Positions 1-17,279 of a stretch of DNA of 64,000 nt are shown piece after piece. The position numbers were made by a program, and so were the translations under genes. How positions within the stretch are numbered: position 1 is the stretch's first letter; the number at the start of each line of letters is the position of its first letter. This stretch comes from a virus, in IMG/VR virus record IMGVR_UViG_3300041411_000129, positions 124,001 to 188,000 of that record; one strand, written 5' to 3'. The notes under the pieces were generated by a model. The model did not search any database. It was not told where the DNA came from and worked only from the letters and a program-made list of their open reading frames with translations.

Positions 1-262
1 TCCGGGCATCCGCGTTACCACCACCGCTCCGCTGCTGGGCTTCGAGCCCGACTTCCTCGAGGCGCTGTCGCGCTCCCTGGACGCAGCTGACATGTCGAGC
101 TACATGACTGCCGAAGGTGGTCTGAACACTCGTCGTCACGTTGGTGGTAGCAACTGGTCGCAGCTGGCAACTTCCGACATCGGCATCAGCCGTCGTCGTG
201 GTTCCGACCGCACCACCGCTGATCGTGGCCGTGGTGGTCTGTTCGACACCATCGACTACTAA
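1..262 (+). CDS. C-terminus of probable phage nuclear shell protein (chimallin-like), 5' partial
   Basis: The window opens inside this gene; reading from base 2 gives 86 residues and a TAA at 260-262. The visible part holds a short ordered stretch (PGIRVTTTAPLLGFEPDFLEAL), then a Gly/Ser/Arg-rich tail ending GLFDTIDY. I assign it by position: in phiKZ the shell protein ChmA (gp54) lies directly upstream of the nvRNAP beta' N-terminal subunit (gp55), and the next gene here is that subunit. Chimallin ends in flexible C-terminal segments that link neighbouring protomers, which suits a low-complexity tail. A strong terminator follows. No shell-domain residue is visible, so this is a synteny inference; another abundant phage protein is possible. 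Confidence 0.5.
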   Translation, partial: PGIRVTTTAPLLGFEPDFLEALSRSLDAADMSSYMTAEGGLNTRRHVGGSNWSQLATSDIGISRRRGSDRTTADRGRGGLFDTIDY

Positions 263-286
263 GTCGGCAGATGCGGTAAACTGACA

Positions 287-312
287 CAGGAGGAGGGGCA
301 ACCCTCCTCCTG
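287..312 (+). terminator. Intrinsic terminator after the partial first gene
   Basis: An 11-bp perfect stem (287-297 with 302-312) closes a GCAA tetraloop and is followed by T-rich sequence. It separates the highly expressed-looking upstream gene from the nvRNAP beta' gene. Confidence 0.85.
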
Positions 313-342
313 TTTCTTTTTTCTTTATCTGCGAGAAGCGCC

Positions 343-1833
343 ATGGATTTGATTAATTACGATATCTACGAGCCACGTCAGCGTTATCCGGGGCGTAAGG
401 GTATCTATCCAGTCATTGAAGACTTCGACCTGATGTTCAAGAACTTGAGCATTAAGCCGATGTTGGCAAACGACCTGGATCTCGAAACAGATGAAGGTAA
501 ACAGCGGTTCAACGATCTGGTCTACACCAAGTACGATGGTGACGTGTTCTCCAACGTGCCGGCGTGTCCATGCCGTAAGACTTCTGGTGGTAGCCGTATT
601 CATGACAACTGTATTCACTGCGGTTATGAAGTACTGCCAATTACAGAGCAAACTATCGAACCTATCGTCTGGGTAAGGGCACCTGACGAAGTTCCTGGGT
701 TCATCAACTTGACAATCTACCGGTTGCTCAAGGCCCGATTCACCAAGTCCTCATTCAGCGTCTTCGACTACATCCTTGATCCAAAGTACCGCCCTCCTAA
801 GCTTAACAGCAAAGAAGAGCGTCTTATTGAAGCGATCGTACCTACTCGTGGGTTGGTCTACTTCCATAAGCACTTCGATGAGATCATGTCCAAGTTGTGC
901 GCAATCAGGCACTTCGTAACAGCGGCCAAAGCTGCTAGCACGATGCGTTTCATTGATATCCACAAACACCTGATCTTCTGCCGCTACATGCCGTTCCCAT
1001 CCAAGATTGGTTTCATCGTCGAAGATGTGGGCGACCGTACGTACGTCGATCCAAAGATGGCACCCGCACTGGATGCGCTCATCTGTCTTGGCAAAGTAGC
1101 ATCGGCCAAGCGCATTTCTCTGTACGATCTTGAATCCCGGATCGCACGGTCAAGCAATAAGCTCTGCACCTATTACTCGGGTAACGAGCATCTCAAGATC
1201 TTTGACAAGAAAGGAGTATTGCGAAAACTGGTTTACGGTGTATCGCCGCACTTTACGTTCCGTACGGTAATCACCTCGAACCACAAACCTCACGATCACG
1301 AGTCTCTCGAGATTCCATGGGGTTCAGCAGTTCTGACGTTTAAGCTCCACATCGCGAACAAGCTACGGAAGGAGAAGTATACTCCTAACGAAATCTTGAC
1401 GCTGGTCTACGATAACGTTCTTCGGACGCACCACCGCATTGAGAAGATCTTCGACGAGCTGATCGCCGAATCTCCAGGCGGTCGAGGGATGATGGCAGGC
1501 TTTACGCGGTTCCCATCGCTTAAGCGTGGTTCTACGCAAGGCTTCTACATCGATACGATCAAACGCGATCCTACCCAATTGAGTACATCCATCTCTGTAT
1601 TGACGCTGGTAGCACCCAACGCCGACTTCGATGGTGACTACATGTCTGGACAATTGGCACTGGATAACGTGACAGCAAGGGCTTTCGAGCGCCTGAAACC
1701 AAGTACTGGGTTCATGGACCTCAAGAAGGTCTTCGGAGTGAGTAACCACGCAAACATACCTGCGCCGGTTATCTCTACAATCAACGCACGTATTGAGGAA
1801 GGAAACGACCTATCAGTACCCATGGGAGATTGA
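343..1833 (+). CDS. RNA polymerase beta' N-terminal subunit (non-virion RNAP, phiKZ gp55-like)
   Basis: The 496-residue product carries the N-terminal half of a split beta' subunit. Residues 75-93 form a zinc site C-x-C-x12-C-x2-C with the spacing of the bacterial beta' zinc-binding domain. The catalytic NADFDGD loop, which holds the Mg-chelating aspartates, lies at 426-432. The C-terminal half of beta' is absent and is supplied by a separate gene (15300-17279 fits). ATG at 343 follows the terminator by 30 bp. In phiKZ relatives the non-virion enzyme transcribes late genes inside the phage nucleus. Being next to the putative shell gene matches phiKZ gp54-gp55, which favours nvRNAP over vRNAP. 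Confidence 0.9.
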   Translation: MDLINYDIYEPRQRYPGRKGIYPVIEDFDLMFKNLSIKPMLANDLDLETDEGKQRFNDLVYTKYDGDVFSNVPACPCRKTSGGSRIHDNCIHCGYEVLPITEQTIEPIVWVRAPDEVPGFINLTIYRLLKARFTKSSFSVFDYILDPKYRPPKLNSKEERLIEAIVPTRGLVYFHKHFDEIMSKLCAIRHFVTAAKAASTMRFIDIHKHLIFCRYMPFPSKIGFIVEDVGDRTYVDPKMAPALDALICLGKVASAKRISLYDLESRIARSSNKLCTYYSGNEHLKIFDKKGVLRKLVYGVSPHFTFRTVITSNHKPHDHESLEIPWGSAVLTFKLHIANKLRKEKYTPNEILTLVYDNVLRTHHRIEKIFDELIAESPGGRGMMAGFTRFPSLKRGSTQGFYIDTIKRDPTQLSTSISVLTLVAPNADFDGDYMSGQLALDNVTARAFERLKPSTGFMDLKKVFGVSNHANIPAPVISTINARIEEGNDLSVPMGD

Positions 1834-1834
1834 C

Positions 1835-2461
1835 ATGGCTTACATCGTAAGTGCTGATGATGACGTAATCCATGCTGCCACTCACGGTATCATGGACAGG
1901 GATGACTTGAGCTTCCTGCGAGATCGCATGGACAGCGCAATGACATCTGCTGGCGGATATGCATCCAGCTTCTTAAAGGCGGCTAGCGACAGGCTGGCTA
2001 ACTTCGATCTCGGTCGTCTGCGGGATCGCGTGAGTGGCCTGCGTGACAGGTTTGGTAAACGGTGGGACGAGGATCGTATCGTTCTTCTGGCAACTCGTGA
2101 AGGGTTGCGTAATGCCAAGCCGAAGATGCGTCGAGCAGCAATGGCCGAACCAAGAACCCGACTTCTCTGGCAACAGGGACGCTTGGAAGGCTATGGCGAG
2201 CTTTACGAAGACGAAGAACCAGGCATGATTGGTCGAGACCATACGCCGTACCGTGAAATCATGAACGGTGCGTACGTTAGTCAAGACATTCCAGATGAAG
2301 ATCACTACGTGACCTACCTTCTGGTACAGGACGAACATGGTGATGAACCATTTACGTTCAATGAGAAAGACATGACCCGTCATGGGACATGGGCAGCTCA
2401 GCGTGGCTTCATCGACGAAGGCAAGCAAGATCCACTCAGCCCGATTGGTAACACACTGTAA
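1835..2461 (+). CDS. Hypothetical protein, 208 aa
   Basis: Not recognised. It starts at the ATG one base after the beta'N stop, so it is probably translated from the same message; a longer reading from 1793 would overlap beta'N by 41 nt and is less likely. The middle (about 40-125) is rich in Arg/Lys and Met, the rest is acidic, and it has no membrane segment or signal peptide. It is closed by a hairpin terminator. Location suggests a nvRNAP-operon accessory gene, but nothing in the sequence proves it. Confidence 0.75.
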   Translation: MAYIVSADDDVIHAATHGIMDRDDLSFLRDRMDSAMTSAGGYASSFLKAASDRLANFDLGRLRDRVSGLRDRFGKRWDEDRIVLLATREGLRNAKPKMRRAAMAEPRTRLLWQQGRLEGYGELYEDEEPGMIGRDHTPYREIMNGAYVSQDIPDEDHYVTYLLVQDEHGDEPFTFNEKDMTRHGTWAAQRGFIDEGKQDPLSPIGNTL

Positions 2462-2468
2462 AACGTAG

Positions 2469-2488
2469 AGCCCGGTGAAAGCCGGGCT
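2469..2488 (+). terminator. Hairpin terminator with TTTATGCC tail
   Basis: Seven-base-pair AGCCCGG/CCGGGCT stem with a short loop, followed by TTTATGCCC and T-rich bases. TATG at 2490-2493 lies 33 bp before the next start codon (see the hairpin-TATG finding). Confidence 0.75.
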
Positions 2489-2522
2489 TTATGCCCTTTA
2501 TTTTTGTCAGGAGTAACGATAC

Positions 2523-3059
2523 ATGTTTCTAGTTAAAGGGATACTCCCTACGGCGCGTGATAAGAACAGCGCATTCACGGAGATACTTCTCGAAGGTTCA
2601 AACTTCGATACGCGTGAGGATATCCTTCCAGAGCTCGGCATTGCCCTCAGTACAATTGATGCACCGATTACTTGGGAAGATGCCCACGGGTACGTAAGTG
2701 TCTTACGTGGGTACGGTAAAGAACTCATCGTGTACTACGTCACCTTTAAGTTCGATACCCATGAATTCGGTGCAGAAGAGTTTGCGTTACTCGATGGACA
2801 TCGGGTAGCCGAAAGGATTGGAATGATAGTTGCAGGGCAGGTAGAGGACGACGACCGGCCAGCAGCTATTTACTTCATGGAGGGGGTGATTCAAGAACTA
2901 AACTTTAAGCCGCATATTGAAGGGGTATGGCGTGACCGATGCTTCGGTGCAGCTTTCTTCATACCCGGTGCAAGACGTGGAAGACCTTTGAAACAACCAC
3001 CTAATGATCCAGGAGCTGAACATGTCGAAACACGTAGGGGAATACACGACCCGCTGTGA
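2523..3059 (+). CDS. Hypothetical protein, 178 aa
   Basis: Not recognised. ATG at 2523 follows CAGGAG. It is an acidic alpha/beta-looking protein with hydrophobic strands near 68-76 and 100-110 and a proline/glycine/arginine-rich end. The last 38 nt overlap the start of the next gene, so the terminal residues may be a late extension past the conserved fold. First gene of a short operon ending at the terminator near 3255. Confidence 0.7.
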   Translation: MFLVKGILPTARDKNSAFTEILLEGSNFDTREDILPELGIALSTIDAPITWEDAHGYVSVLRGYGKELIVYYVTFKFDTHEFGAEEFALLDGHRVAERIGMIVAGQVEDDDRPAAIYFMEGVIQELNFKPHIEGVWRDRCFGAAFFIPGARRGRPLKQPPNDPGAEHVETRRGIHDPL

Positions 3060-3240: not shown

Positions 3241-3254
3241 GCAGCATAAACACG

Positions 3255-3270
3255 GGGAGCTTCGGCTCCC
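3255..3270 (+). terminator. UUCG hairpin terminator
   Basis: GGGAGC-TTCG-GCTCCC followed within 12 nt by CTTC and a T8 run. Confidence 0.85.
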
Positions 3271-3331
3271 TGCTGTCCTACTTCTTTTTTTTGTCCAAAT
3301 AGGATGTCCGATTCTATTAGGCAGATCCGCT

Positions 3332-3757
3332 ATGGCCATTAAAGTAGCAACTCTAGGTAAGGCTGGTTGTGTCGAAGATATTGATCTCAAGATCGATTAC
3401 ATGATGTGCTGTTACTTCTTTTCGAAATACAGCCAGACAACCTACTTCAAAGACAACGTACACTCGCTTACAAAGGTCATACAGCAATACGGCAACGATC
3501 CCTTCGCCATTGCCGAGAAGTTGAAGTCAGACCTCTACAGTTTCCTCTCAGAAGGTTTCAGCAGCGTTACTCTGGAAGTTACTTTGGACACCACAACGGT
3601 GGGTCCAGGTATTTCTTTACTAATCGAGGGAATAGTAAGCGACGGAGACAGCATCGATGTAGAATCACGAAGCATCGGATACGCTCTCACCGCCAAAGAT
3701 TCCATGTTGAAAACAATCCTCAACACCAACAGTGGTACAACACTGTACTCCTCCTAA
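3332..3757 (+). CDS. Hypothetical protein, 141 aa
   Basis: Not recognised. It starts at ATG 3332 soon after the upstream terminator and ends nine bases before the next gene. The N-terminal half is helical with a CC pair near residue 26; the C-terminal half (about 75-130) reads as beta-rich with many Thr/Ser. No catalytic motif, membrane segment or signal is visible. Confidence 0.7.
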   Translation: MAIKVATLGKAGCVEDIDLKIDYMMCCYFFSKYSQTTYFKDNVHSLTKVIQQYGNDPFAIAEKLKSDLYSFLSEGFSSVTLEVTLDTTTVGPGISLLIEGIVSDGDSIDVESRSIGYALTAKDSMLKTILNTNSGTTLYSS

Positions 3758-3766
3758 GGAAGACCC

Positions 3767-4303
3767 ATGTCGTCTGAAATCTCGAAACAAAACGAAGCCA
3801 CCGAAGCCGCAGCTCCTGAAGCAGCTCCACAACCAGTCTTCATGCCAGAAACCCCTGAGCAACTGAAAGCGTTCGTCGCGGCCAGCGTTACCGACCTGCT
3901 GAACATCCCGGAAAACGCTACCCACTTCGCTCGCGTTGTTCTGTCCGGCGCTCTGAGCGCTCTGAACAACCAGGCTCAACTGGCATCCCAACTGGCACTG
4001 CGTCCGGTCCTGACCCGCACTCCGTACGCTGGTTGCCTGCGTGCCGTCATCAGCGCCAACACCGAAGCTGGCGACGAGCCTCTGACCGTCGACATCACCA
4101 CCCGCGCTGCTGGCAGCGAAGAGTGGATCGACTCCGGCATGCCGAACGAAGCTCTGCAAAAGATCGCCAAGCTGGTTCTGTCGCAATCCACCGTGCCGGG
4201 CGATGTCTGGTACATCACCAGCAACCGCGCTGTTGACGCGCAACTGGACGCCGCTGCTGAAGCCCTGCTGAACCAGGCTCAGAACGACGCCGCTCCGGTT
4301 TAA
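3767..4303 (+). CDS. Hypothetical abundant protein, 178 aa, Ala-rich
   Basis: Not recognised. A low-complexity N-terminus rich in Ala, Pro and Glu (residues 1-30) precedes a helical Ala/Leu-rich body. Codon use is strongly skewed to CTG, GCT/GCC, ATC and AAC, unlike the genes beside it and like the inner-head protein at 39006-40346, suggesting very high expression. GGAAG lies upstream of ATG 3767, and a UUCG terminator follows. No domain is visible. Confidence 0.75.
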   Translation: MSSEISKQNEATEAAAPEAAPQPVFMPETPEQLKAFVAASVTDLLNIPENATHFARVVLSGALSALNNQAQLASQLALRPVLTRTPYAGCLRAVISANTEAGDEPLTVDITTRAAGSEEWIDSGMPNEALQKIAKLVLSQSTVPGDVWYITSNRAVDAQLDAAAEALLNQAQNDAAPV

Positions 4304-4352: not shown

Positions 4353-5051
4353 ATGTCCCGTACTGGTCCTCGTGAAAGAAAGCCTGTAATCCGCAACAAG
4401 CCCCGTGAGGATCTTGAGGATAAAGGCTCTGAAGCTTACCGGGCTTATGTTCAGGAAGGTCTTGAGCGAATGGCTAAAGCAGCCACAGAGATCAATGACT
4501 CTACGGCTGAGCGTAAGCGTAAGGTCCCTGAGCAATACTTCGTCAACATCCTTCTGCCGGTTCTGCGTAAGTGGATTCGTCGGGAAGAAGTTGAAATCGG
4601 CCACTACCTGAACGTAGCCGATGGTCTCAACAATGAGATTGAAGTTGTCGATCAGGAAGGCGTGAAACTGTACGATGTGCCCCCATTGTTTGTAGACGTA
4701 CCCACTCGAGTGGCGCGTCATGAACCTGGTGTCAACATCCCAACTATCCACAAGTTGGTTCAGATTCAGGGGATGCACGTTGATAACAACGACATGCGTC
4801 AAGTCTTCACGATCGAGAACGATCTGGTAGACATCTTGGCTCCGCGTGCAGAAGACGCATCCAAGACCCGGTGTCTGGTGATGTTGTGCCACATCTACGA
4901 TCGCTACGAGCTACCTCTTGAGGAACTCGTGGGTGAGAAACTCGCTCCCGTTATTGCAGCGGCCTTGAGGGCTGCTAAAAAGCCCGGTACTAACGCCATT
5001 GCAGAGAGCGGTAATAATGCAAGATCCGACGACGACTTTATCATCGACTAA
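4353..5051 (+). CDS. Hypothetical protein, 232 aa
   Basis: Not recognised. TAGGAG precedes ATG 4353. The N-terminus (1-25) is basic, the body alpha-helical and acidic, and the end is a hydrophilic Gly/Asn/Asp tail. The last 35 nt overlap the nuclease gene, which suggests translational coupling and perhaps a shared DNA-processing role, but no domain supports that. Confidence 0.7.
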   Translation: MSRTGPRERKPVIRNKPREDLEDKGSEAYRAYVQEGLERMAKAATEINDSTAERKRKVPEQYFVNILLPVLRKWIRREEVEIGHYLNVADGLNNEIEVVDQEGVKLYDVPPLFVDVPTRVARHEPGVNIPTIHKLVQIQGMHVDNNDMRQVFTIENDLVDILAPRAEDASKTRCLVMLCHIYDRYELPLEELVGEKLAPVIAAALRAAKKPGTNAIAESGNNARSDDDFIID

Positions 5052-6204
5052 AGGCACCGTCATCAAGGTGGGGCTTAGCCGCCTCACCTACGCTGTCAGA
5101 CAAGCGGGTGACCTACTGATCGCTGTTATCAGCGATGTACACCTCGGACATAACCGGGTTAAGTCTGGAAAGATTGTAGATGTACTGGAGAAGACCTTCC
5201 ATGAAGAGCGGATGAAAGCTCTGGATGTGATCATTATCTCCGGTGATCTGTTTGACAAACGTCTCGCTTATGACAGCGATGACGCGTTCGTGATTACACG
5301 GTGGATGGAACGTTTCCTGAAACTGGCTGCAAAGCACAATGTAGCTATCCGAATCCTTGAAGGTACGCCTAGCCACGATAACAGACAGTCCCGCTGGATG
5401 ATTCAGTACAACGAAATGATCGAGGCTAATGCCGACATCAAGTACTACGAGAACATCGTCATCGATGAACTCATCCCCGGTGGTCCGACTGTCCTGTATA
5501 TTCAGGATGAAGTGAACCACGACGCTAACAAGACCTGGAAGATGGTTCAGGACTTGATGCGGGAGCAAGGCATAGACAAGGTAGACTTTGCCGTTATGCA
5601 CGGCATGTTCACCTATCAGGAGCCTGTACGTAGTATCTCGAGTCACCTTGAGGAACGGTACGAATCAATCGTAGTTCATTTGATCATCATTGGTCACAAT
5701 CACCACCACACGACCAGCGGTAAGATTCGTGTGCCGTCCTCTACTGAAAGACTTAGGTTTAATGAAGAGGATGACAAAGGACATCTACAGTTCTGCTTCT
5801 CCCCAACGGAAGGCGTCTACGATGAGTTCTTTGTGGTCAATGAAGAAGCAACCATCTTCACGACTATCGAGGTAGTAGGTAAGACACTGAACCAAGTGAT
5901 TGCTACCCTCAAGAAATACAACGGCAGTCCAGACGGTAGTTACTTCCGTTTGAAGCTCAGCCGAAACGATGAGGCTTACACAGCCTTAACCCGAATAACC
6001 GTAGAATTCCCGCAGTTTAACATCTCTACCAAAGTAGTGGATGGCGCTGGTGACCTTGACACCGAAGATACTGGACTGATAGTTGAGACCGTGACCCTGA
6101 CATCAATCAGGCCAGACACGCTCATGCAGCTACTCCTTCCACGTCTAGAGGGTACGCCTGATGACATCATGAAGGAGATCGTGAAGGTGCTGGAGAAAGG
6201 CTAA
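5017..6204 (+). CDS. SbcD/Mre11-like metallophosphoesterase nuclease
   Basis: The 395-residue protein has the calcineurin-like phosphoesterase metal motifs in order: SDVHLGH (D40, H42), GDLFD (76-80), a GNHD-equivalent GTPSHD (116-121), HGMF (195-198) and GHNHHH (226-231). These are the Mn-binding sites of SbcD, Mre11 and T4 gp47, exo/endonucleases for DNA ends that normally work with an SbcC/Rad50/gp46 ATPase. The C-terminal 140 residues would form the capping region. I chose ATG 5017; the upstream start at 4999 only lengthens the overlap. No SbcC partner is encoded in this window. The Asn of GNHD is replaced by Ser, which could alter activity. Confidence 0.85.
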   Translation: MQDPTTTLSSTKGTVIKVGLSRLTYAVRQAGDLLIAVISDVHLGHNRVKSGKIVDVLEKTFHEERMKALDVIIISGDLFDKRLAYDSDDAFVITRWMERFLKLAAKHNVAIRILEGTPSHDNRQSRWMIQYNEMIEANADIKYYENIVIDELIPGGPTVLYIQDEVNHDANKTWKMVQDLMREQGIDKVDFAVMHGMFTYQEPVRSISSHLEERYESIVVHLIIIGHNHHHTTSGKIRVPSSTERLRFNEEDDKGHLQFCFSPTEGVYDEFFVVNEEATIFTTIEVVGKTLNQVIATLKKYNGSPDGSYFRLKLSRNDEAYTALTRITVEFPQFNISTKVVDGAGDLDTEDTGLIVETVTLTSIRPDTLMQLLLPRLEGTPDDIMKEIVKVLEKG

Positions 6205-6217
6205 CAGGAATAGATAC

Positions 6218-7075
6218 ATGACCGTTGAGAATATTTCACGAGAGAAGCTGTCCGAAAGAGCCATGGGTCAGTTTCCAATCTCCATTGCTACAAGTCTGGC
6301 AATCGAGTCTCTGGTCGGTATCCTTCCTGAGGCTCCTACGGACTCGCCTGAGATCTTCAAGCGGGACCTGCTACTGATCAACATCCGCACGTTGATTCGT
6401 AACCTGTTGGGCTCTGTAGATAAGGAGGCACGCGCTTTACTCGAAGAGTACACGATGGCTGAAGCCGTCAGTAACGAGATGCGCGTTATTGAGGAGATCA
6501 TCTCAGAGACGTCAGATGGTCGATGTGAAGTAAAGTTCTATCACTGCACGTATGGCGATGTTCCTCGCAAGTACAAGCAAGCTCTGTTGAAAGCTCCGAC
6601 CACAACAGCGCAACACATGTACTGGGCTCAGAAGAATCTGGTGATCAAGAATCTCCTGACTCAATTTGAGAGCGGTTCTCCTATCGAACAGTACACAACC
6701 GACTTCCCTGACTTCAATTACAAGACAGTGCTTCTGACGCATTATCCGATCGACCTGCTACAAAGGTATCGGTTTACCTCGTTAGCGCTCTTAGAATCGC
6801 ACACAGGGGCTATAAAGACACCTCTTATGTGGAACACGAAGTTACTTGGCGGAAAGGAGAATCCGAACCTGCCTTTTGACAAGATGACCTTGCAGATGTT
6901 TGGTGATGGGATTCTATTCAGCCCGATGCCTATCAAGATCCGCAAGCGTGTTCTGGAGCTAGCCGAGACTTACAAATGGACTCCGGCTACCACTAAGGCT
7001 TTGATCATAGATTCCGCTGCGGCTCGTAAAGACCCGGCACTGGAGATGTTGATCAAGGATCTCTATAGTGCGTAA
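6218..7075 (+). CDS. Hypothetical protein, 285 aa
   Basis: Not recognised. ATG 6218 is 13 bp after the nuclease stop and follows CAGGAAT. The first 100 residues are helical; the centre has aromatic-rich segments (LLTHYPIDLLQRYRF near 171-186), and a helical basic C-terminus ends in KDLYSA. Its place between a DNA-end nuclease and an SSB-like gene suggests replication or recombination, but no motif confirms it. Confidence 0.75.
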   Translation: MTVENISREKLSERAMGQFPISIATSLAIESLVGILPEAPTDSPEIFKRDLLLINIRTLIRNLLGSVDKEARALLEEYTMAEAVSNEMRVIEEIISETSDGRCEVKFYHCTYGDVPRKYKQALLKAPTTTAQHMYWAQKNLVIKNLLTQFESGSPIEQYTTDFPDFNYKTVLLTHYPIDLLQRYRFTSLALLESHTGAIKTPLMWNTKLLGGKENPNLPFDKMTLQMFGDGILFSPMPIKIRKRVLELAETYKWTPATTKALIIDSAAARKDPALEMLIKDLYSA

Positions 7076-7139: not shown

Positions 7140-7940
7140 ATGTCGCAACAACCCGAAAAGAAACGCCGCGAACCGGAAGCCATCGACGACGGTAAACTCC
7201 GTCTGTACGGCGCTCCTCAGAAGGAAGGCGCCCGTCAGACAATGATCCGGGTGAAGCTGGATTCGAACAACAACAACCCGATCATCGAGGTCGACTTCGG
7301 TTACAAGACCGAACCGAAAGCTGGCAAGTCTGAAGGCTTCCCGGTCAAGATCGATACGCCGATGGCGCCGATCCCTTTCCGTACCCTGATGAACCTGATC
7401 ATCCGTGTTGCGAACTACAACGGCGAAGTGTCGTTCGAAGTCGACAACTGGGGCTTCCCATTCATGTGGGATGCGGATCAGCGTAAGAGCGTTCGTGCCA
7501 AAGAGAAGATGATCATCTCTCGCTTCCAAGTGGCCAAACGTGAAGACGGTGTTGTAACCTTCGGCATCACTGCCAAAGGCAAGCCAGACATGGTTCACGA
7601 GTTCAAATCTGACGAATACCACATGATCATGCAAAATGGTCAGCCGGTTGACGTGAAGATCTCTAGCCGTGAAGCAGCGATTGCAACTGCTGAAGCCTGG
7701 CTGGAAGTGTACTACGAGCGCTTCACCAACAAGTGGGAAGAGCCTGAGTACCAGAAGAAGCGTCGTCTGGAAAACATGCAGAAAGCCCAAAATGGCGGCG
7801 GTGGTTACCAGCAACGTAACAACAATGGCGGCGGTGGCGGTGGTAACAACTACCAGCAGCGTCCTCCTCAGCAACAGCAACAGCAGCCATCAGCGCCTCT
7901 GGGCGACGGTAACGGCTTCGACGACGATATCCCTTTCTAG
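7140..7940 (+). CDS. SSB-like single-stranded DNA-binding protein candidate
   Basis: The 266-residue product ends in a Gly/Asn/Gln-rich linker (about 215-255) and the tip GFDDDIPF, the hallmark C-terminal peptide with which bacterial SSB recruits partners. The N-terminal 200 residues are mixed alpha/beta with several aromatic residues, but I cannot see a canonical SSB OB-fold pattern, so it may be an analogue. I chose ATG 7140 with AGGTGAT upstream; the longer reading from 7095 has no ribosome site. It sits directly before the gp68-like RNAP gene and is closed by a long hairpin. Confidence 0.65.
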   Translation: MSQQPEKKRREPEAIDDGKLRLYGAPQKEGARQTMIRVKLDSNNNNPIIEVDFGYKTEPKAGKSEGFPVKIDTPMAPIPFRTLMNLIIRVANYNGEVSFEVDNWGFPFMWDADQRKSVRAKEKMIISRFQVAKREDGVVTFGITAKGKPDMVHEFKSDEYHMIMQNGQPVDVKISSREAAIATAEAWLEVYYERFTNKWEEPEYQKKRRLENMQKAQNGGGGYQQRNNNGGGGGGNNYQQRPPQQQQQQPSAPLGDGNGFDDDIPF

Positions 7941-8080: not shown

Positions 8081-9670
8081 ATGGAATTCAGCATCACTGG
8101 ATTTACCAAACGAAGTTTCTCAGCTGTCGCTGTGTCCCACCCTGGTGAAAACGATATCATCATTAATGCTGCGGGTTACGCTAACGCTAAACCGGGTGCA
8201 GTAAAGAACGATGACGAGTTCGGGATGCGCGTCGAGCTGTTCAGCGAGATCAATGATCTCATCAGCCGTTACAGTAAGGGGGATCAACAAAAGCTGTACG
8301 ATTGCTACGCCCGCCTTGACACGGTGCTGGACTCGTACGGTACAGATGTAAAAGCCAGTGAATTCATGGAGTTGCTGCAAGATATCGTTAAAGGTATCTT
8401 CGACATCGTGAAGTTCGAAGATCTGCGTGATTACCTGACCAGTAATAAGAACATCAAGTTCCCCGCAGAACTGGCCGACACTTACGTTACAGCAGATAAG
8501 ATCACTCCGATCTACATGGAGCGTACTTATCTGAAACGGGAATACATCGATCTGGCAGCAGTGGCATTGGGCCTGCGGTGCATGATTCCTGTTTGGGGCG
8601 CCTTCCTTCCAATCGCTATAAAGGAAGAAGGTCCGAAGAAGAAGGAGTACGTTGCGTACAAACTTCTGGAAACCTGCCTGCTCAAAGAGTGTCCTGCATT
8701 CGATCGTCTGGAAACTTACGTTCGGGCAAACACTACCGAGATGGAACACGAGATGGCTATCATCTTCGAGTTCCTGTCATCCGAGGAGATCCCTGTCTTC
8801 CTGATGGCACTGGCATTGATCCGTAAGGTTTCGATCGCCCCGTTGTCCGCAGAGACGGATAAGGATCACTTGATGAAGGTGGTCTTCAACTACGTCTGCG
8901 GTAACAACAACAGACTTCCGGCGGCATTCGGCGGTAACATCCGGTCGAAGATCGATGTGGAAGCAGCAACAGACGACAACAGTTCGGTCTGGTGCTATTA
9001 CAAAATGAAGGAGCAGATCAGTACTGGCGACCTCTGCATCTTCCAGCTGTACATCACCGATTACCTCGAGGCAGCTCGGGCAATCGATCAAGAGATCACT
9101 GACGAACAAACCGAGATGTGCGTAGCCCGCGCGCAGAAGTTGGCACGGTTTGATCCGAACGATGCACAAGTAGCTCTCTGCATCTGGGTTATGTCTACAG
9201 TGGTAGCAGGTTGTGCGATCGAGATGTTCGACCGTAACACTCTGTTCACGGCAATGGGTATTTCCCAGACCGTCCTGTGGAAGTGGGGTTTCCATCAATT
9301 GGCAATCCTACAAACAGCAGCTCCCGTCCAGATGGCAGACGACGAGATGATGACCCCGGTTCCTAGAACCAAGATCAGCGACGAGAACATGAAACAGCTG
9401 GAATACATCTATCCTTACACAATGCCGGAGAGCAAGAAGGATAGTGGTCAATCACCAAACGTTGGGGTACGTGGGGTGGAAGACGCGGCAAATGTATTCT
9501 TTAAGAACGAGTGGGAACCTCAGTGCCCGCGCCAATTGGCAGCGAAGTACGAGCGGACAGACGTTACCCGGCGTCTGCAAGTTTCCAGTGACTTCCGTGA
9601 TGAGCTGGCTGAGTTGTTTATCAAGCTGGACGGTTACGTACGTCACATCCCTATCCCGGTAATGGACTGA
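8081..9670 (+). CDS. Candidate fifth nvRNAP subunit (phiKZ gp68-like)
   Basis: The 529-residue protein has no motif I recognise, but its place between beta'N and beta C and its length match phiKZ gp68 as I remember it (about 520 aa), the non-core subunit of the nvRNAP thought to act in promoter recognition. It is mostly alpha-helical and acidic with scattered Cys and aromatic residues. ATG 8081 has GGAG upstream; GTG at 8060 is possible but lies in the inverted repeat. It has its own early-type promoter box. Identification rests on synteny and length only. Confidence 0.5.
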   Translation: MEFSITGFTKRSFSAVAVSHPGENDIIINAAGYANAKPGAVKNDDEFGMRVELFSEINDLISRYSKGDQQKLYDCYARLDTVLDSYGTDVKASEFMELLQDIVKGIFDIVKFEDLRDYLTSNKNIKFPAELADTYVTADKITPIYMERTYLKREYIDLAAVALGLRCMIPVWGAFLPIAIKEEGPKKKEYVAYKLLETCLLKECPAFDRLETYVRANTTEMEHEMAIIFEFLSSEEIPVFLMALALIRKVSIAPLSAETDKDHLMKVVFNYVCGNNNRLPAAFGGNIRSKIDVEAATDDNSSVWCYYKMKEQISTGDLCIFQLYITDYLEAARAIDQEITDEQTEMCVARAQKLARFDPNDAQVALCIWVMSTVVAGCAIEMFDRNTLFTAMGISQTVLWKWGFHQLAILQTAAPVQMADDEMMTPVPRTKISDENMKQLEYIYPYTMPESKKDSGQSPNVGVRGVEDAANVFFKNEWEPQCPRQLAAKYERTDVTRRLQVSSDFRDELAELFIKLDGYVRHIPIPVMD

Positions 9671-9710: not shown

Positions 9711-11303
9711 ATGGAACTTGTTAAACTTATCTTCGTGGAAACTGAAGGCAGCGACACTCCAGTCATTCGTCCTTACGAAACCACGCTGAAGAAAGACGAC
9801 CTCGATCTCTTCGCCAAGGCTACCGATGACGGCTCGAACCTGAGCACCATTCGCCTGGCCAAGGTTGTAGCGCCACTCCTCGGTCCATCGAACCGTCGTC
9901 AACACAAGTCCCACATCAGCAATGGTTGGGATACTACTCGGATCATGTTCGGGATGGTTGTTAAGGTGATGAACCGTGACAACGCCAGTACCTACGAATA
10001 TATCGTGGGTTATACCGATCACAGCGAACACGCCCGTCGTGGCGATAACGCGAAGTTCGATGCTGGCATGAAGATGTATTTCAACAACATCACGCGGGTT
10101 CACATGCAGGAATCCCGTCACCGCGATAGCAATATCTGGGTGCCGAAGATCCAAGCGCATGACCAGATCCTGCTTCGCTCCAGCCTGACTGGTTCTGATC
10201 GTGGCACTGCCCGTGGCGGCGATCGTCCAGTTACTCTGCGTCCTACCGACTTGTTCAAACGTGGTGGTGCAGATGCGGCATTCGGTTCGTTCATGCGTGA
10301 TAACGACAGTAATGTCAACAACACCGTTGGTTCGTTCAGCTCGGCAATCCGTGCATCGAACGTTGTCAACAATAGCCAGACCGCTTACGCGGCCCGTAAC
10401 CTGAATGCGTGGATGCAGGCGAGCAACTCGCCTAACGATGCGTACGTCGGTGACGGTAATGATGAAGACACCATCCAGGCAACTTCTGATCGGTTGGCAG
10501 AGAACTCTCTGGAACTCGATCCGTATCTGGAGCGTATCAAGCGCGACACCAACATTCTCCGTGAAGGTTGCATTACTTTCGGCGAACTGATGGACATGAA
10601 CGAAGACTTCGATGAAGATCGTCAGTTGATGTTCGTTCCGTTGGACAAGCGTAAGCGCGGTGGTTTCATCAATAACTCCGCTTGGGGTGAAGATACCAAC
10701 GAGGCGATTGCAGCGACCATCATCGCAAACTCCCTGCCTGGCATTCTGATCAATTCGATGTATTCGTCTGTGTCTGGTCTGGTGCTGAACAGTCGTGCCC
10801 GCTTCGGCGAGTACAAAGTAGTTTGCTCTGAGCCAACTCCGTTTGCTCCAGGTATGTCGGTTAAGGCGAACTGGCCGTACTTCGAAAGTCAGATCGAACA
10901 CGTTCTGATGGAAGAAGTTGGTTGTGGTGGTGCGTTTGAGTTCGAAGCGTACATCGACGCGAACATCGACCAGTTCATCAAGATCCGTATCCGGATGGAC
11001 GGTGGTGAAGAAGCATCGTTCAACTTCCCAGCGTATGCGTCCAGTCTTCTGGCGCCTACTCAGGATAAAGACTTCAAGTCGCTCGATCGGATGTCGAAAG
11101 GCGTTATCGATCTGGCCTCTGGTCTGTCGAACATGCGGATGTCGCGCTCTGGCGTTGGGGCTCGTGAAGACGGCCTGAACACTGGCAGTGAAAGTCGCAT
11201 CAATCTGGCTCCAAGCAGTAAAGAGTCGCGTCCTCGGGATAACGATTACAGAGCCGCTCCAGCAGCAGCCTCTGGCGAACGTAAAGGTGGTAAGGGCTGG
11301 TAA
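9711..11303 (+). CDS. Large hypothetical protein with KGGKGW tail; nuclear-import-factor candidate
   Basis: The 530-residue product starts at ATG 9711 after CAGGAG. It has a structured body and a hydrophilic C-terminal tail (about 475-530) rich in Ser, Arg, Ala and Gly that ends KGGKGW. In phiKZ the gene after gp68 is gp69, described as a shell-associated protein needed for cargo import into the phage nucleus (Imp1/PicA, from memory). Position makes this a candidate counterpart, and a flexible basic tail would be compatible. I see no diagnostic motif. Codon use suggests high expression. A weak hairpin overlaps its stop codon. Confidence 0.45.
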   Translation: MELVKLIFVETEGSDTPVIRPYETTLKKDDLDLFAKATDDGSNLSTIRLAKVVAPLLGPSNRRQHKSHISNGWDTTRIMFGMVVKVMNRDNASTYEYIVGYTDHSEHARRGDNAKFDAGMKMYFNNITRVHMQESRHRDSNIWVPKIQAHDQILLRSSLTGSDRGTARGGDRPVTLRPTDLFKRGGADAAFGSFMRDNDSNVNNTVGSFSSAIRASNVVNNSQTAYAARNLNAWMQASNSPNDAYVGDGNDEDTIQATSDRLAENSLELDPYLERIKRDTNILREGCITFGELMDMNEDFDEDRQLMFVPLDKRKRGGFINNSAWGEDTNEAIAATIIANSLPGILINSMYSSVSGLVLNSRARFGEYKVVCSEPTPFAPGMSVKANWPYFESQIEHVLMEEVGCGGAFEFEAYIDANIDQFIKIRIRMDGGEEASFNFPAYASSLLAPTQDKDFKSLDRMSKGVIDLASGLSNMRMSRSGVGAREDGLNTGSESRINLAPSSKESRPRDNDYRAAPAAASGERKGGKGW

Positions 11304-11310: not shown

Positions 11311-11346
11311 TTCACAAACCCCTATTAATGACCACGGGAATTAGTG

Positions 11347-12609
11347 ATGAGTGGAAGTAAGCTCGATCGAATGAATGACTTCAACCGAAAGGTCCTACTT
11401 GACGTAGGGGTTTTCGAAGAAGAAGTAGATGACGGCCATCTGTCCTACCTTAAGGACGGTAAGCCATCTCCAGTGACCCTGAACAAGACTCGTCTGTGCA
11501 TCACCGTACAGCGGATCTTGAAAGAAGGCCTGGGTGAAGAACGTACTGGGTTCCATCCCCTTGCTGAACAGATCACCGAAGGTCCAAGTCCTGTACTGAA
11601 CGCCTTCAAGAACTACGTCGGTGAGCGCATCAAGGCAACGGTTCGCCATATCGGCCTGTCGTTGATGGAACTGGCATCCGACTCCAAGCGCCACAAAGGC
11701 ATGTCTGCCAAGGCTTCCAAGTATCTGACCGCTCTGGCAGGTATTGGTGAAGTCGATGAAAAGACTGTCGATACCATGCGCAAGGTGTTCGATGCTGTCA
11801 GTCAGGTTCCTGAGAAGCACCTGATTACCATTATCCTGAAAGCCAAGACCGACGACGGCAGTCTGCGTCAATCGGTTGTAACCTTCCCGATCATGGATGA
11901 AGCCGATAGCGAAGAAACCGAAACCTTCTTTGGCGTGAAGATGCCACGGAAGACCAAGGACAAAGCGCTGATTGTATCGGTTCTCGAATACATCCTGGGC
12001 GACGAGCCAGCTCGCAAGATGTACACCTCCGGCAGTAAGAATGGCAACTCGCCGTACTTCCACAGCCTGCTGTTGTCCTTCCACAAGCTGGCAACTCGAT
12101 TGAACGACATCCTCACCGTACATGCGCCTAAGTGCCCATCGTTCGAAGAGCTGAAGTTCAATCTGGACTGGAGCGATGAACTCGATAACTTCGACGACTT
12201 CGCCAAGGTTTGCAGCCGAGCAGTTCCTGCTCTGCCGGGTAATACCGGTAAGGAAATCGAAGAAGAACGTTCTGCGTTCGAAGCAAGTGCGAGTGATGTT
12301 GGTGCCGATGATGATCTGCCGTGGAATGAACCTAAAGCCAAACTCACCATCGGTAGCGATGACGAGAAGCGTCCGGCTGCTGGTTCGAGTTTCCGCGACA
12401 CTGTCAACAGCTCTCGTTCGAGCCGTGATCGTGATGATGATCGCTCGGATAGCCGTTCGAATCATGGAAGCTTCCGTGACTTGATGGGCGGTAAGGGTCG
12501 TGACCGCGATCGTGACGATCGTGATAGCCGTCGTGAAAGCCCAAGCTGGCGTTCAGGGCGTGATCGTGATGATCGTGACCGTGGTGGTCGCGGCGGCCGC
12601 GGCTGGTAA
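11347..12609 (+). CDS. Hypothetical protein with long Arg/Asp/Gly (RGG-like) C-terminal tail
   Basis: This 420-residue protein has a helical body (1-310) and a low-complexity tail from about 330 of repeated RD/DR and SR units that ends in RGG repeats and W. Such tails bind nucleic acid or promote condensation in other proteins. The gene follows the import-factor candidate, and both end in G-W, which suggests a common partner. ATG 11347 is chosen; GTG 11344 directly before it is equally close to the upstream GGGAATTAG. A strong terminator follows. No function can be assigned from the body. Confidence 0.6.
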   Translation: MSGSKLDRMNDFNRKVLLDVGVFEEEVDDGHLSYLKDGKPSPVTLNKTRLCITVQRILKEGLGEERTGFHPLAEQITEGPSPVLNAFKNYVGERIKATVRHIGLSLMELASDSKRHKGMSAKASKYLTALAGIGEVDEKTVDTMRKVFDAVSQVPEKHLITIILKAKTDDGSLRQSVVTFPIMDEADSEETETFFGVKMPRKTKDKALIVSVLEYILGDEPARKMYTSGSKNGNSPYFHSLLLSFHKLATRLNDILTVHAPKCPSFEELKFNLDWSDELDNFDDFAKVCSRAVPALPGNTGKEIEEERSAFEASASDVGADDDLPWNEPKAKLTIGSDDEKRPAAGSSFRDTVNSSRSSRDRDDDRSDSRSNHGSFRDLMGGKGRDRDRDDRDSRRESPSWRSGRDRDDRDRGGRGGRGW

Positions 12610-12665: not shown

Positions 12666-13007
12666 CTAGCTGACATTTAAGCTAGTTCTGTAGATTTGTT
12701 TAAACCGCGCAACCAAGGCCATGTCAGGCACAAGCACATGGTTGATCGTTTCATCAATCTGGTGAATAGAGGAAAACCCGTTAACTCGCATCACCAGATA
12801 ATGATCCTCAAGTGGTACGCCGTTCGCTAAAAGGAACTGTGTTAGGTCAAACCTGTAGAGATATCCAGTCTCAGGAGACACCATCACTTGACGAGTGGTC
12901 TCAGATTCCCTGAAGTAGATGATCAGGGAGTCCACGTACGTCTTATATTCTTGAGTGAGTGTGAAGCTTGAGGGAGACGCTACGATCCACTTGGAAATGC
13001 CAGTCAT
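12666..13007 (-). CDS. Hypothetical protein, 113 aa, lone minus-strand gene
   Basis: Not recognised. This is the only minus-strand gene in the first 20 kb and is placed between two nvRNAP-region operons. The start at 13007 has TAGGTAAAC upstream on its strand. The sequence looks protein-like, with aromatic strands (YKTYVDSLIIYF; LYRFDLTQFLL) and no membrane segment. It diverges from the beta C promoter, so it may be a separately controlled regulator, though no DNA-binding motif is visible. Confidence 0.6.
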   Translation of the reverse strand: MTGISKWIVASPSSFTLTQEYKTYVDSLIIYFRESETTRQVMVSPETGYLYRFDLTQFLLANGVPLEDHYLVMRVNGFSSIHQIDETINHVLVPDMALVARFKQIYRTSLNVS

Positions 13008-13084: not shown

Positions 13085-15265
13085 ATGAATCCATTTGATC
13101 CAACCGATCATTTACCTCAAGAGCGCTACACCATTCCACCGGAGATGGTTCCGATCAGTGGTTTAAACTCTCAGTTCAAATGTGTCTCTGGTGCCCGTCA
13201 AGCAATGTTCACCGGTAACCTGTCCCAAGTATTGATCGTGGATGGACGTACCCGTAAACGCCAGCAGACTGGGTTGGAACGCGAGATTGCCAAAGCTACA
13301 TTTAACCATCAGTTCCCTCGTGAAGCTGTGGTATTGGCGATCATCCCACGATTTACATCCCGTAACTTCGGCGATAAATTCCAGATCAACCCGTTCGATC
13401 TGGTGATCTACGAGGATTGGGAAACGAAAGAGCTGGACGTGGTCGAGTTGAGCAAGTTTCACGTAATGCACCAGCATTACGGATTCGAGTTCGAATACGA
13501 TCAGGACGTCTACGACGCCATCGTTAAAGGTAAACGTTTCAAAGCAGGTACAGTCATTGCTCGTTCTCCGGCAGTTACGGATGACGGCGACTACATGTAC
13601 GGCCTGGAAACCAACGTCTGCATGATCTCTGATCCGGCAGGTACTGAAGACGGTGTAAAGATCAGTCAGAGTTATGCCAAGCGTATTCGCTCGACAGGCT
13701 TTGAAAGTCGGATTGCTCGCTTCGGCGGTAGCCATTACCCAATTAACTGGAACGGTAACCTGGAGGAGTACAAACCTATTCCAGACATCGGTGATTTCAT
13801 CCAGTCAAACGGTCTGATCTGCGCCTCACGGCCTTTCGATCCAAAGTACGATCCAGTCTACATGACTCGGACCAAGCTACTTAAACCGCAGTATGGGTTG
13901 GACACACCGCTGTACGGCGTACCTAACGCTCAAGTCGTAGACATCCGAGTCCTTCATAACGATAGGCTGTCTTCCCCGAAACTACCAAAGGAAATGACCA
14001 AACAGTTCCTGAAGTACTACGAGGCCGACCAAGAGTTCTACACCAAGATCGTTAAGACGTGCCTCTGCCGGAAAGGTAACTTCCTGGCTGACGACGTTGC
14101 AATGTCTCCACGTCTGCGCATTCTCCTGTACGAAGCAATCGCACGTAGCGGTGAGCGTCTGCTGGAAGAAGGCATCTGGCCGAAGAGCAAAGCCGACCAA
14201 CTGCGTGTTCGCACGAAGTATCGCGGCGAGATCTTAGATGAGTTCCGTGTGGAAATCATCTACCAGTACAAGACGTCGGTTGGTGAAGGTCCTAAGGTTA
14301 CTGACCAATCTGGTGGTAAAGGTGTTACTTCGGCGGTTGCTCCAGACGAAGACATGCCTACAGACGAGAACGGTATTCGTGCCGACGTGGTGATCTTCTC
14401 GAACTCCACGGTAAACCGTCTGAACAACGGTCGTCAACATACCCAGGTAATCGGTGCTGCTGGCCGGGATATCATCAAACGTGTTCGTAAGTCTTACGGC
14501 TTGCCAGCCTTCGGTCCGATTGATCGGGAAGAAGTCAAACGTGCGGTGACGTCTCAGAACAACATGGCTGTAACCATGAAGAACTTTGCGTACATCATCG
14601 GCTTCTATAAGCTAGTGGCGCCTGCAATGTACGAACGTCTGACGCGTAACGATGTCATTCCGCAAGGGATTCACTTGCAGCATGTAATCGAATGCATCAT
14701 GGACGGCGAAGATCCTCACGGTCTGTTCCTGCAACTCGCATCCTCTGACGAAGTCTACATGGACAAAGTCATCAAGGAGATCGAATCAGGTCCGTACATG
14801 CCAGATCTGACGCCAGTGACCTATCGGAACCTGGCTGGCGATATGGTAACCACCAAGACCAGCATCCTGATCGGTCCTGACTACTACCTGCCTTTGGAGA
14901 AGACGGCTACCGACGGTTCCGGTGTATCGTCCTCCAAGACAAACCACTTCGGTGTTACTGCCCGTCTGACGAATGCTGACAAGTATGCCAGCCCTGGCCG
15001 TGAAACCGTAACCAAATCTACCGGTGAGTCCGAAGCGCGTAACCACGCTCACGCATATGGTGCTGAGCCCCTTGCTCACATCATGGACTTGAACTACAAC
15101 CCGGTGGTCCACAAAGAAGCCTGCATGACGATCCTCACCCACGAGACACCGACCAACATCGAATGTCTTGTTGACCGTGAGAAGTTTAAGCTTGGTGGAC
15201 ATCGTCCGCTGGCTTACGTTCGCCACATGATGGCCGTATCTGGTAAGAATATCTCCAGGGAGTAA
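13085..15265 (+). CDS. RNA polymerase beta C-terminal subunit (nvRNAP, phiKZ gp71-73-like)
   Basis: The 726-residue protein is the C-terminal half of a split beta subunit. DGVKISQS (about 189-196) corresponds to the beta 'edaI-is' region; TDQSGGKGVTS (about 406-416) to the GDK..GRHGnKG active-site lysine region; and ADVVIFSNSTVNRLNNGRQ (about 435-455) to the PvDiilNPlgVPSRMnvGQ region. ATG 13085 follows AAGGAG. It lies 34 bp before beta'C, the same adjacent order as phiKZ gp71-73/gp74, which supports nvRNAP identity. Beta N, phiKZ gp123 in my memory, is not in this window. Confidence 0.88.
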   Translation: MNPFDPTDHLPQERYTIPPEMVPISGLNSQFKCVSGARQAMFTGNLSQVLIVDGRTRKRQQTGLEREIAKATFNHQFPREAVVLAIIPRFTSRNFGDKFQINPFDLVIYEDWETKELDVVELSKFHVMHQHYGFEFEYDQDVYDAIVKGKRFKAGTVIARSPAVTDDGDYMYGLETNVCMISDPAGTEDGVKISQSYAKRIRSTGFESRIARFGGSHYPINWNGNLEEYKPIPDIGDFIQSNGLICASRPFDPKYDPVYMTRTKLLKPQYGLDTPLYGVPNAQVVDIRVLHNDRLSSPKLPKEMTKQFLKYYEADQEFYTKIVKTCLCRKGNFLADDVAMSPRLRILLYEAIARSGERLLEEGIWPKSKADQLRVRTKYRGEILDEFRVEIIYQYKTSVGEGPKVTDQSGGKGVTSAVAPDEDMPTDENGIRADVVIFSNSTVNRLNNGRQHTQVIGAAGRDIIKRVRKSYGLPAFGPIDREEVKRAVTSQNNMAVTMKNFAYIIGFYKLVAPAMYERLTRNDVIPQGIHLQHVIECIMDGEDPHGLFLQLASSDEVYMDKVIKEIESGPYMPDLTPVTYRNLAGDMVTTKTSILIGPDYYLPLEKTATDGSGVSSSKTNHFGVTARLTNADKYASPGRETVTKSTGESEARNHAHAYGAEPLAHIMDLNYNPVVHKEACMTILTHETPTNIECLVDREKFKLGGHRPLAYVRHMMAVSGKNISRE

Positions 15266-15272
15266 TCCCTGG
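15255..15272 (+). other. Hairpin spanning the beta C stop codon
   Basis: CCAGGGA-GTAA-TCCCTGG is a perfect 7-bp stem whose loop contains the TAA stop. No T-tract follows, so it may affect translational coupling to beta'C or RNA stability. Confidence 0.5.
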
Positions 15273-15299
15273 CGGTACAACGTAGGAGCGTGTTAATTA

Positions 15300-17279
15300 A
15301 TGGCAAGACATCGTCGGTTCAGAGCCCGTGACCTGTTCGATACGATGGTACATCTTTGGCCTTGCGCTGAGTACGAGGAATTCATCCTCGAGTTCGACGA
15401 CGGCGACACGATGACCACCACAACAATCAATACCCAGATCTCCCGCAAGCTCTGGTTGCCACACGAGGTATACGACAAACTCGGTATCTTCAAGCGCCAC
15501 CACATCGGTAATGGTTCGCTGTCCAATGAACGCATCCATGAAGTACAGGGTGCGATCACTGAAGACATGTACAACACGTACGGTGAGTTGGGCTTTAACC
15601 GTGAAGAGTTGTGGCGACACAACTATTACGGCACCAACCGTCTGTACAACGAATCCATCGTCGAATATGCGGCGTATGTTCGCGGCAGTAACTCATTTGA
15701 CTTCAGTCATCTGTACGAGTATCCGCCAATCGCTAAGATCCGTACCGAATGCCAGCCTAACAAGCTGTCTATCGAGAAGGCTTACGATGCGGCGAAGTTG
15801 GTTCTGGAACGTGATCCTGCGATTGCTCGTAACGTGATCATCTCCGACCTTCGGGCTGGGCTGCTGAAGATGGAGCAGTTGCTTCAGATCCTCATCGTGC
15901 GGGGCTATAATACCGACATCGATGGGCACGTATACAGCAAACCTATCATGGGCAACTACTTCGCAGGTATTCATGATCCTGCTGAAGCCATGATGGAATC
16001 CACATTGGCCGCTAAGGCTATCATCTTTACCGGAGCGCCGCTCGAACAAACCGAGTATGCAAACCGGAAGATGCAGTTCACTACCCAGCAGGTTGACTTG
16101 CTGGTAATGGCTGACTGTGGATCGACTGAGTACGGAGAGATTGAGATCACCAAGTTCAGGTTCAAAGCCATGGACGGTCTCAACTATCTCGATCCTGATA
16201 CCAACCGGTTGAAACCATTGCGGATGACTGACACTCACCTGATTGGTGAGACACGCAAGTTCCGTCTGGCATTCAACTGTAAGTACCGGCATCACAACAA
16301 CGTCTGCAAAATGTGCTACGGCTTGCTGGCGTATAACGTGCCGTTCGGTGCGAACATCGGTCATATCGCATCTACAATGACCCAATCGGAAGTATCTCAG
16401 GCAGTGTTGAAGGTTAAGCACTCTGAGGCGTCTGCTTCTTCTGATCCGATCATCATTCAAGATGAAGAACGGCCGTACATCCTCCCAGCATCTGAAGGTC
16501 ACCAGATTCGTCTGAACCCAAGACTGGGCGTTAAGGGTATTCCGCTGATGCTTCGCGGTGGTTACTCTCAGGGTGTTCACAACGCATCGAAGCTTCCTGT
16601 ACTGAAACGTACCGATCTGCGCGCTGGCGTTAACATCGCCAAGTTCAGTCAGTTCCGTGAAGTCAGCTTTGAGCTGCCTAGCGAGAACAAGCAGTCGAAC
16701 CGGGTACACGTCACGGTATCCCGTGGCGCTCGCATGTCGAACCTGACTCGTGAATTCCTGGACTACTTCCTGAAGAAAGGCTTCCGAATCGATGATGATG
16801 GTTATTATCGGATTGATCTGAAGGATTGGAACTTCGACCTGCCAGCCTTTGAAATGCCAAACCGCCACGGTAGCATGAAGGACCACGCAGCAGTAGTGGA
16901 AGTAATGATCCGCTCTACTCGTGACTCCAACCAGCGCCACTTGGGTCGGTTGAAGCAATTGAAGGACTATGCAAACCCAACTGAAGCAATGTTGGATACG
17001 CATGAACTGATCGCACTGAAGGTTCCTGTTCACTTCACCCATGTCGCTATTGTGTTGCTGTCTATGATGGTATCCAGTACGAAGTCCGGTGATTACAGGA
17101 TTCCACCTCTTGGCGAACCTACTCGGTTTGCTAAATACGATCACGTAATCAGTGGTCGCTCGATGGGCGCGTTCTTCGCCTATCAGGGTGGTCGTAACCT
17201 GCTCGATACACTTGAGCAGTACATGATCACCGAACGGGAACAACATCTGCTCGATCCATTGCTGATGCCAGGCTGGTAA
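15300..17279 (+). CDS. RNA polymerase beta' C-terminal subunit (nvRNAP, phiKZ gp74-like)
   Basis: The 659-residue product matches the C-terminal half of beta'. C336-x2-C339-Y-G followed by GANIGHIASTMTQSEVSQAVL corresponds to the CxxCYG ... GeavGiiAAQSIGEPGTQLTM stretch of bacterial beta', which includes the bridge-helix-distal region. GAPLEQTEYANRKMQFT and DCGSTEYG mirror the TA.SGYLTRRLVD/DCGT segment. It completes the beta' subunit with 343-1833. TAGGAG precedes ATG 15300. The SIGEPG consensus is highly divergent (STMTQSE), as expected in jumbo-phage enzymes. Confidence 0.88.
   Translation: MARHRRFRARDLFDTMVHLWPCAEYEEFILEFDDGDTMTTTTINTQISRKLWLPHEVYDKLGIFKRHHIGNGSLSNERIHEVQGAITEDMYNTYGELGFNREELWRHNYYGTNRLYNESIVEYAAYVRGSNSFDFSHLYEYPPIAKIRTECQPNKLSIEKAYDAAKLVLERDPAIARNVIISDLRAGLLKMEQLLQILIVRGYNTDIDGHVYSKPIMGNYFAGIHDPAEAMMESTLAAKAIIFTGAPLEQTEYANRKMQFTTQQVDLLVMADCGSTEYGEIEITKFRFKAMDGLNYLDPDTNRLKPLRMTDTHLIGETRKFRLAFNCKYRHHNNVCKMCYGLLAYNVPFGANIGHIASTMTQSEVSQAVLKVKHSEASASSDPIIIQDEERPYILPASEGHQIRLNPRLGVKGIPLMLRGGYSQGVHNASKLPVLKRTDLRAGVNIAKFSQFREVSFELPSENKQSNRVHVTVSRGARMSNLTREFLDYFLKKGFRIDDDGYYRIDLKDWNFDLPAFEMPNRHGSMKDHAAVVEVMIRSTRDSNQRHLGRLKQLKDYANPTEAMLDTHELIALKVPVHFTHVAIVLLSMMVSSTKSGDYRIPPLGEPTRFAKYDHVISGRSMGAFFAYQGGRNLLDTLEQYMITEREQHLLDPLLMPGW

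Follow-up and report, generated by a model that had tools for sequence, protein, structure and literature searches.

The left part of the stretch of DNA analysed here can be identified with high confidence: it is the core block for nucleus and transcription in an uncultivated chimallivirus that is divergent from those known. This stretch of 64,000 nucleotides (the window) is G000:124001-188000, G000 being the 253,921-base virus record IMGVR_UViG_3300041411_000129; coordinates without that prefix are window positions. Chimalliviruses share a core gene block of conserved order (PMC10299810). Fourteen families occur here in the order seen in phiKZ, PhiPA3 and pPa_SNUABM_DT01 (DT01), and it is this agreement that identifies the locus as the core block of a divergent chimallivirus. 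Megablast of the window's first 20 kb against phages gives 0 matches, which places the phage far from isolates at the DNA level; the block of shell, import, RNA-handling and polymerase genes holds its order even at a protein identity to known phages of about 20-35%, and adds a deep branch to nucleus-forming phages. As a locus it is an ordinary though very divergent core block. Its less expected parts are an agreement between the last residues of two shell-associated proteins, PicA and ChmC, and a predicted activity for the gp67-family protein.

Gene order, shell protein and polymerase

The genes of the block are as follows (E-values are those of the family or structure matches named).

1-262, plus strand: C-terminal 86 residues of the shell protein ChmA (chimallin), in an open ORF (2-262) with an RGG/G-rich tail; assigned by families and fold
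343-1833, plus strand: N-terminal beta' subunit of the non-virion RNA polymerase (nvRNAP), phiKZ gp55 orthologue; 7ogp_A 2.9e-68, phrog_2987, phiKZ genome match
1838-2461, plus strand: phiKZ gp59 family, core-block protein; phrog_3254 3.7e-30, syntenic in related contigs
2523-3059, plus strand: lineage-specific ORF, no family match in PHROG and Pfam searches
3332-3757, plus strand: phiKZ gp62 family; phrog_3294 2e-20, synteny
3767-4303, plus strand: lineage-specific ORF, no match in family searches
4353-5051, plus strand: phiKZ gp64 family; phrog_5171 2.2e-8, synteny
5047-6204, plus strand: SbcD-like nuclease (phiKZ gp65); phrog_100 2.7e-40, Metallophos Pfam
6218-7075, plus strand: phiKZ gp66 family; phrog_3229 3.3e-80
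7140-7940, plus strand: phiKZ gp67/PhiPA3 gp61 family; phrog_3284, predicted Whirly/PUR-like domain, Gly/Asn/Gln linker, tip DDDIPF
8081-9670, plus strand: fifth nvRNAP subunit, phiKZ gp68 orthologue; 7ogp_B 1.2e-39 over 1-516, phrog_3209
9711-11303, plus strand: PicA/Imp1 orthologue (phiKZ gp69, PhiPA3 gp63), by analogy an import factor; phrog_3141 1.9e-57, tblastn, alignment, position
11344-12609, plus strand: ChmC/Imp6 orthologue (phiKZ gp70, PhiPA3 gp64), by analogy an RNA-binding shell protein; phrog_3520 9.1e-50, tblastn, alignment, position
12666-13007, minus strand: small conserved gene inside the block; phrog_3455 1.6e-15, a possible baseplate wedge protein according to the Moabite annotation
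13085-15265, plus strand: unsplit nvRNAP beta (phiKZ gp71-73); 7ogp_C 4.4e-111
15300-17279, plus strand: C-terminal beta' subunit of nvRNAP (phiKZ gp74); 7ogp_D 1.1e-73
17893-19413, plus strand: SF2 helicase closing the block (phiKZ gp75); phrog_16 1.2e-24, synteny

The order from ChmA to the helicase is also kept in the reference phages and IMG/VR contigs searched. An earlier note on this DNA had laid out a phiKZ-like series (gp54, gp55, gp68, gp69, gp70, gp71-73, gp74); all of the ORFs it named are present, including 8060/8081-9670, 9711-11303, 11344-12609, 13085-15265 and 15300-17279, and the series is borne out by family, genome and synteny matches. The genes between 1838 and 7940, which it passed over, are part of the same conserved cluster. 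The two lineage-specific ORFs, 2523-3059 and 3767-4303, are candidates for nucleus functions.

The gene cut by the left edge had been proposed to encode the phage nucleus shell, to be checked by leftward extension and structural comparison with chimallin. Extension completes chmA as G000:122244-124262, 672 aa, with a GTG start behind AGGAG. The protein matches PHROG 4795, "nuclear shell protein" (1.3e-34), and Pfam Chimallin_Phikzvirus (PF25677; 5.9e-10, above the cut-off), and a PDB sequence search gives a weak match to PhiPA3 PhuN. A structure predicted with 24 aligned relatives as input has a mean pLDDT of 70.6 and disorder at residues 1-76 and 624-671, and the full gene product folds as chimallin: the top structural matches are all nine of the nine solved chimallin chains (E 1.3e-27 to 2.5e-21; TM 0.74-0.81 by target length), the next-best structure standing at E 0.04. 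The gene identities, the gene order and the chimallin fold are thus established here. A family B DNA polymerase gene, divergent, lies upstream of chmA at G000:117769-119898, as in phiKZ gp50, and the ~480 bases just upstream of chmA (G000:121768-122243) are without an evident gene, possibly a regulatory leader. Elsewhere in the genome a PhuZ tubulin homologue (G000:111817-112830) is ~26% identical to phiKZ PhuZ.

All five subunits of the phiKZ non-virion RNA polymerase (gp55, gp68, gp71, gp73 and gp74) are represented, with gp71 and gp73 fused in one frame. Comparison with chains A-D of the solved phiKZ enzyme (7ogp) gives E-values of 1e-39 to 4e-111, which exclude chance as the cause; these include the gp68 alignment proposed in the earlier note. 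The 343-1833 product, aligned to 7ogp_A, carries the Zn/Cys cluster CPCR..CIHCGYE and the catalytic motif NADFDGD. The beta gene, split in phiKZ (NC_004629 gp71-gp73), runs through one frame in this phage, as it does in several other relatives.

Two alternative readings of the locus can be given hardly any weight. Nucleus-less jumbo phages with multisubunit RNA polymerases, such as PBS1/AR9, carry the same polymerase genes (PMC10299810), and the left gene might then be something else, but a phage of that kind is refuted by the PHROG 4795, Pfam chimallin and fold matches of that gene. Two further points count against it: the block contains PicA and ChmC, which are reported to belong to the core gene set of phages that encode a shell (picA is found together with chmA in this genome), and the polymerase fits phiKZ much better than it fits the 7s00/7s01 chains of related phage RNAPs. 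It is likewise most improbable that the genes encode the virion-packaged enzyme, which is related to the non-virion one and shares its split beta/beta' type: in the complete phiKZ genome the only matches of the beta and beta' genes are gp55, continued at gp56.1, gp71 plus gp73, and gp74; the locus includes a gp68-type subunit as in the solved non-virion enzyme; and a weak, separate beta'-like match (G000:106872-107159) is consistent with a second set, of virion type, elsewhere. The matches to the virion enzyme that the earlier note had named as contrary evidence are therefore not found, and its non-virion assignment stands.

Matching last residues of PicA and ChmC

The two large proteins between the gp68 and beta genes had been described as unknown, with nucleus or transcription functions guessed for them. 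The guess of a nucleus function is right; the label of unknown is not, as the families were named PicA/Imp1 and ChmC/Imp6 in the literature of 2024-2025 and the question was already answered. The 9711-11303 gene sits in the PicA position, between the gp68 and gp70 orthologues, and its assignment draws on tblastn against 86 phages; in tblastn the ChmC gene finds PhiPA3 gp064 at 3e-21. PDB sequence searches with PicA and ChmC profiles give no convincing match. We take ChmC to be the PhiPA3 gp64/phiKZ gp70 protein, an equation put together from several papers. PicA/Imp1 is a protein import factor, essential in Goslar (PMC11087766; PMC12908238); that it directs protein import is documented only in phiKZ and Goslar (PMC11087766). 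The shell protein ChmC/Imp6 binds RNA (PMC12908238), and its gene lies beside the polymerase genes. In PhiPA3, gp61, gp63 and gp64 are all found at the nuclear shell (PMC10643120).

Most genomes have one picA (28 of 30 searched genomes or records are single-copy). Well away from the core block, this genome carries a second member of the PicA family, which is divergent (G000:241138-242481, 447 aa; 4.3e-23 with a profile of 17 PicA sequences, phrog_3141 4.3e-26), whose product is without the tail. It is also present in the close relative 3300006051_000001, and another extra copy occurs in 3300048861_000178.

Here the disordered tail of PicA ends GKGW and the RD/RG-rich tail of ChmC ends GRGW. 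The initial observation was that both proteins end GW in this phage, LL in PhiPA3, L in phiKZ and with an aromatic residue in DT01; the rule noticed on these four phages was tested afterwards on 47 distinct contigs with picA and chmC both complete. Across phages the last residue of the two is identical as W/W, F/F, L/L, I/I or V/V. There are 28 matches in the 47 contigs, against 6.5 +/- 3.6 expected when both ends are simulated to evolve independently on the PicA+ChmC tree at fitted rates (P=2.5e-4; P=0.0025 at half and P=0.04 at a quarter of the fitted end-residue rate). Clustering at 70% PicA identity leaves 17/34 matches, against 4.4 expected by shuffling, and clustering at 40% leaves 7/20, against 1.75 (P=4e-4); clusters without the four discovery groups still give 5/17, against 1.4 (P=0.005). 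An independent-pairs sign test on the tree, underpowered with its few contrasts, gives P=0.25. Five additional Pseudomonas phages yield three exact pairs and two L/I pairs. The match is only approximate in DT01 (F/Y) and in 201phi2-1, Phabio and Viktualia (L/I), and the enterobacterial and Vibrio members sampled (e.g. L084, L091, L094-L096, L098) do not follow the rule.

The tails of PicA and ChmC are probably co-adapted to one shared partner, as the pattern of their ends suggests: the same free last residue in both proteins is what would be expected if both enter one co-evolving pocket. That they share a docking site is a tentative proposal from sequence statistics, with a probability a little under one half. 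Its fuller form, held with the same near-even confidence, is a one-residue C-terminal docking signal (W, F, L, I or V) that would vary jointly in the two proteins between phages and let both enter a single pocket of one shell partner: a "plug", specific to the species, linking import with RNA export. Indirect support comes from the literature. Docking by chain ends is an established habit of this shell, since the extreme C-terminus of chimallin docks on the neighbouring subunit (PMC9365700). A C-terminally sfGFP-tagged PicA did not rescue a knock-down, from which its authors concluded that the C terminus matters (PMC11087766), and PhiPA3 ChmB pull-downs contained both gp63 and gp64.

The match might also arise with no shared partner, through 3' end exchange, protease avoidance or common composition, and we regard this as a substantial possibility, short of even. 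picA and chmC lie side by side, frequently with an overlap of a few codons, and both encode tails of low complexity. Nor is the GW end confined to nucleus proteins: it is found in five genes of this genome, among them that of the head maturation protease. Against such origins, the end codons of the two genes differ synonymously (CTA/CTG for L, GTA/GTG for V, TTT/TTC for F), so that the match is not copied DNA; agreement is confined to position -1, the residues before the end not agreeing; and gp67, beta'C and the other neighbours have no such end match, PicA/ChmC being the only stand-out in 90 pairs among the 14 block families.

A general "GW" tag for nucleus proteins was considered and rejected, one GW gene being the head maturation protease and the GW end of beta'C not being retained in the sister clade L063. 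The GW ends number 5 in 260 called genes, where ~0.2 are expected; besides PicA and ChmC they belong to G000:84980-85786, G000:113785-114108 and 15300-17279 of the window. The tip of ChmA matches the PicA or ChmC end at most weakly. As the shared partner ChmB was rejected: it is not found outside the phiKZ group, yet the tail rule holds there. In G000 neither phiKZ gp2 nor a two-sequence profile finds a ChmB match, the same searches being positive in PhiPA3, PA1C and 201phi2-1, and ChmB is likewise not detectable in several other phages obeying the rule.

A shared docking site, if causal for the match, would make the tail ends a direct handle on the attachment of import and RNA handling to the shell, which is listed as an open question in reviews (PMC12908238). 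No mention of the match was found in the literature surveyed, which leaves aside the primary ChmC and Imp1 papers, where it may be described.

The gp67-family protein

The start of the gp67-family gene is placed at 7140 (MSQQP) in preference to 7095 because the open frame of the relative L018 begins just upstream of MSQQP. Members of the family have a domain of ~190 residues, a Gly/Asn/Gln-rich linker and an end that is mostly DDD[IV]P[FLMW]; the acidic hydrophobic tip after the Gly-rich linker is present in nearly all alignment rows, and most members have an equivalent or degenerate tip. Bacterial single-strand-binding proteins have this layout. The domain is predicted with pLDDT mostly 85-98, and its best PDB fold matches are MRP1/MRP2, WHY1 and PUR-alpha, all weak (E 0.01-0.06, none <1e-3). 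These proteins all bind single-stranded nucleic acid and share a fold type. Against a viral structure library the only confident matches are to uncharacterised phage proteins, and profile comparison shows no relation to ChmC. The model and the layout together lead us to predict that the gp67-family protein binds single-stranded nucleic acid.

It might serve only as a replicative single-strand-binding protein with no role at the shell, a possible reading but a doubtful one: the SSB-like layout and tip and the weak Whirly/PUR/MRP fold matches are in keeping with it, but in PhiPA3 the family member gp61 is located at the nuclear shell and appears in the RecA/ChmA proximity-labelling lists (PMC10643120). 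The authors of that work give gp61 no predicted function, and the prediction of nucleic acid binding thus supplies a testable activity for a shell-associated protein. Imp3, according to a review (PMC12908238) among the shell proteins found in PMC10643120, may by elimination be the gp67 family.

The infection functions of the block proteins are read across from studied relatives (PMC11087766, PMC10643120, PMC12908238, PMC13282480), as is the formation of a nucleus in infected cells. By analogy, chimallin would build a shell around the phage DNA, within which the five-subunit non-virion RNA polymerase would transcribe; PicA on the shell would admit selected proteins, and ChmC on the shell would bind phage RNA and probably aid its exit. 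The gp67-family protein, shell-associated in PhiPA3, would be a binder of single-stranded nucleic acid. PicA and ChmC would probably dock by their disordered tails in one co-evolving pocket on ChmA or another core shell protein.

Comparison with known systems

The solved chimallins of 201phi2-1 (gp105), Goslar and PhiPA3 (PDB 7sqq, 7sqt, 8fne) share with the ChmA described here the common predicted fold, the disordered N tail and the C-terminal segment, at ~17% identity in structural alignment; ChmA here differs in a longer, R- and E-rich N tail of ~75 residues and in an RG-rich C tail. The phiKZ gp50-gp75 and PhiPA3 gp53-gp68 regions contain same-order orthologues of ChmA, gp55, 59, 62, 64, 65, 66, 67, 68, PicA, ChmC, beta, beta' and the helicase, most phiKZ orthologues being 18-32% identical to the proteins found here and the two parts of beta 30-40%. 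Unlike those phages, this one has an unsplit beta, lacks an HNH gene in the gp56 position, shows no ChmB homologue anywhere in the genome by the searches made and has PicA and ChmC tails that end W/W rather than L/L. DT01 (MW735835) has the same order gene for gene, down to the minus-strand gene that separates ChmC from beta, and gives the best PicA and ChmC matches in the phage collection; identity to it is 24-34% in ChmA, gp67, PicA and ChmC, and its PicA and ChmC end F/Y where those here end W/W. The IMG/VR contigs 3300006051_000001 and 3300041405_000133, partial at 188 and 130 kb, are 95-100% identical in ChmA, PicA and ChmC and belong to the same species or genus.
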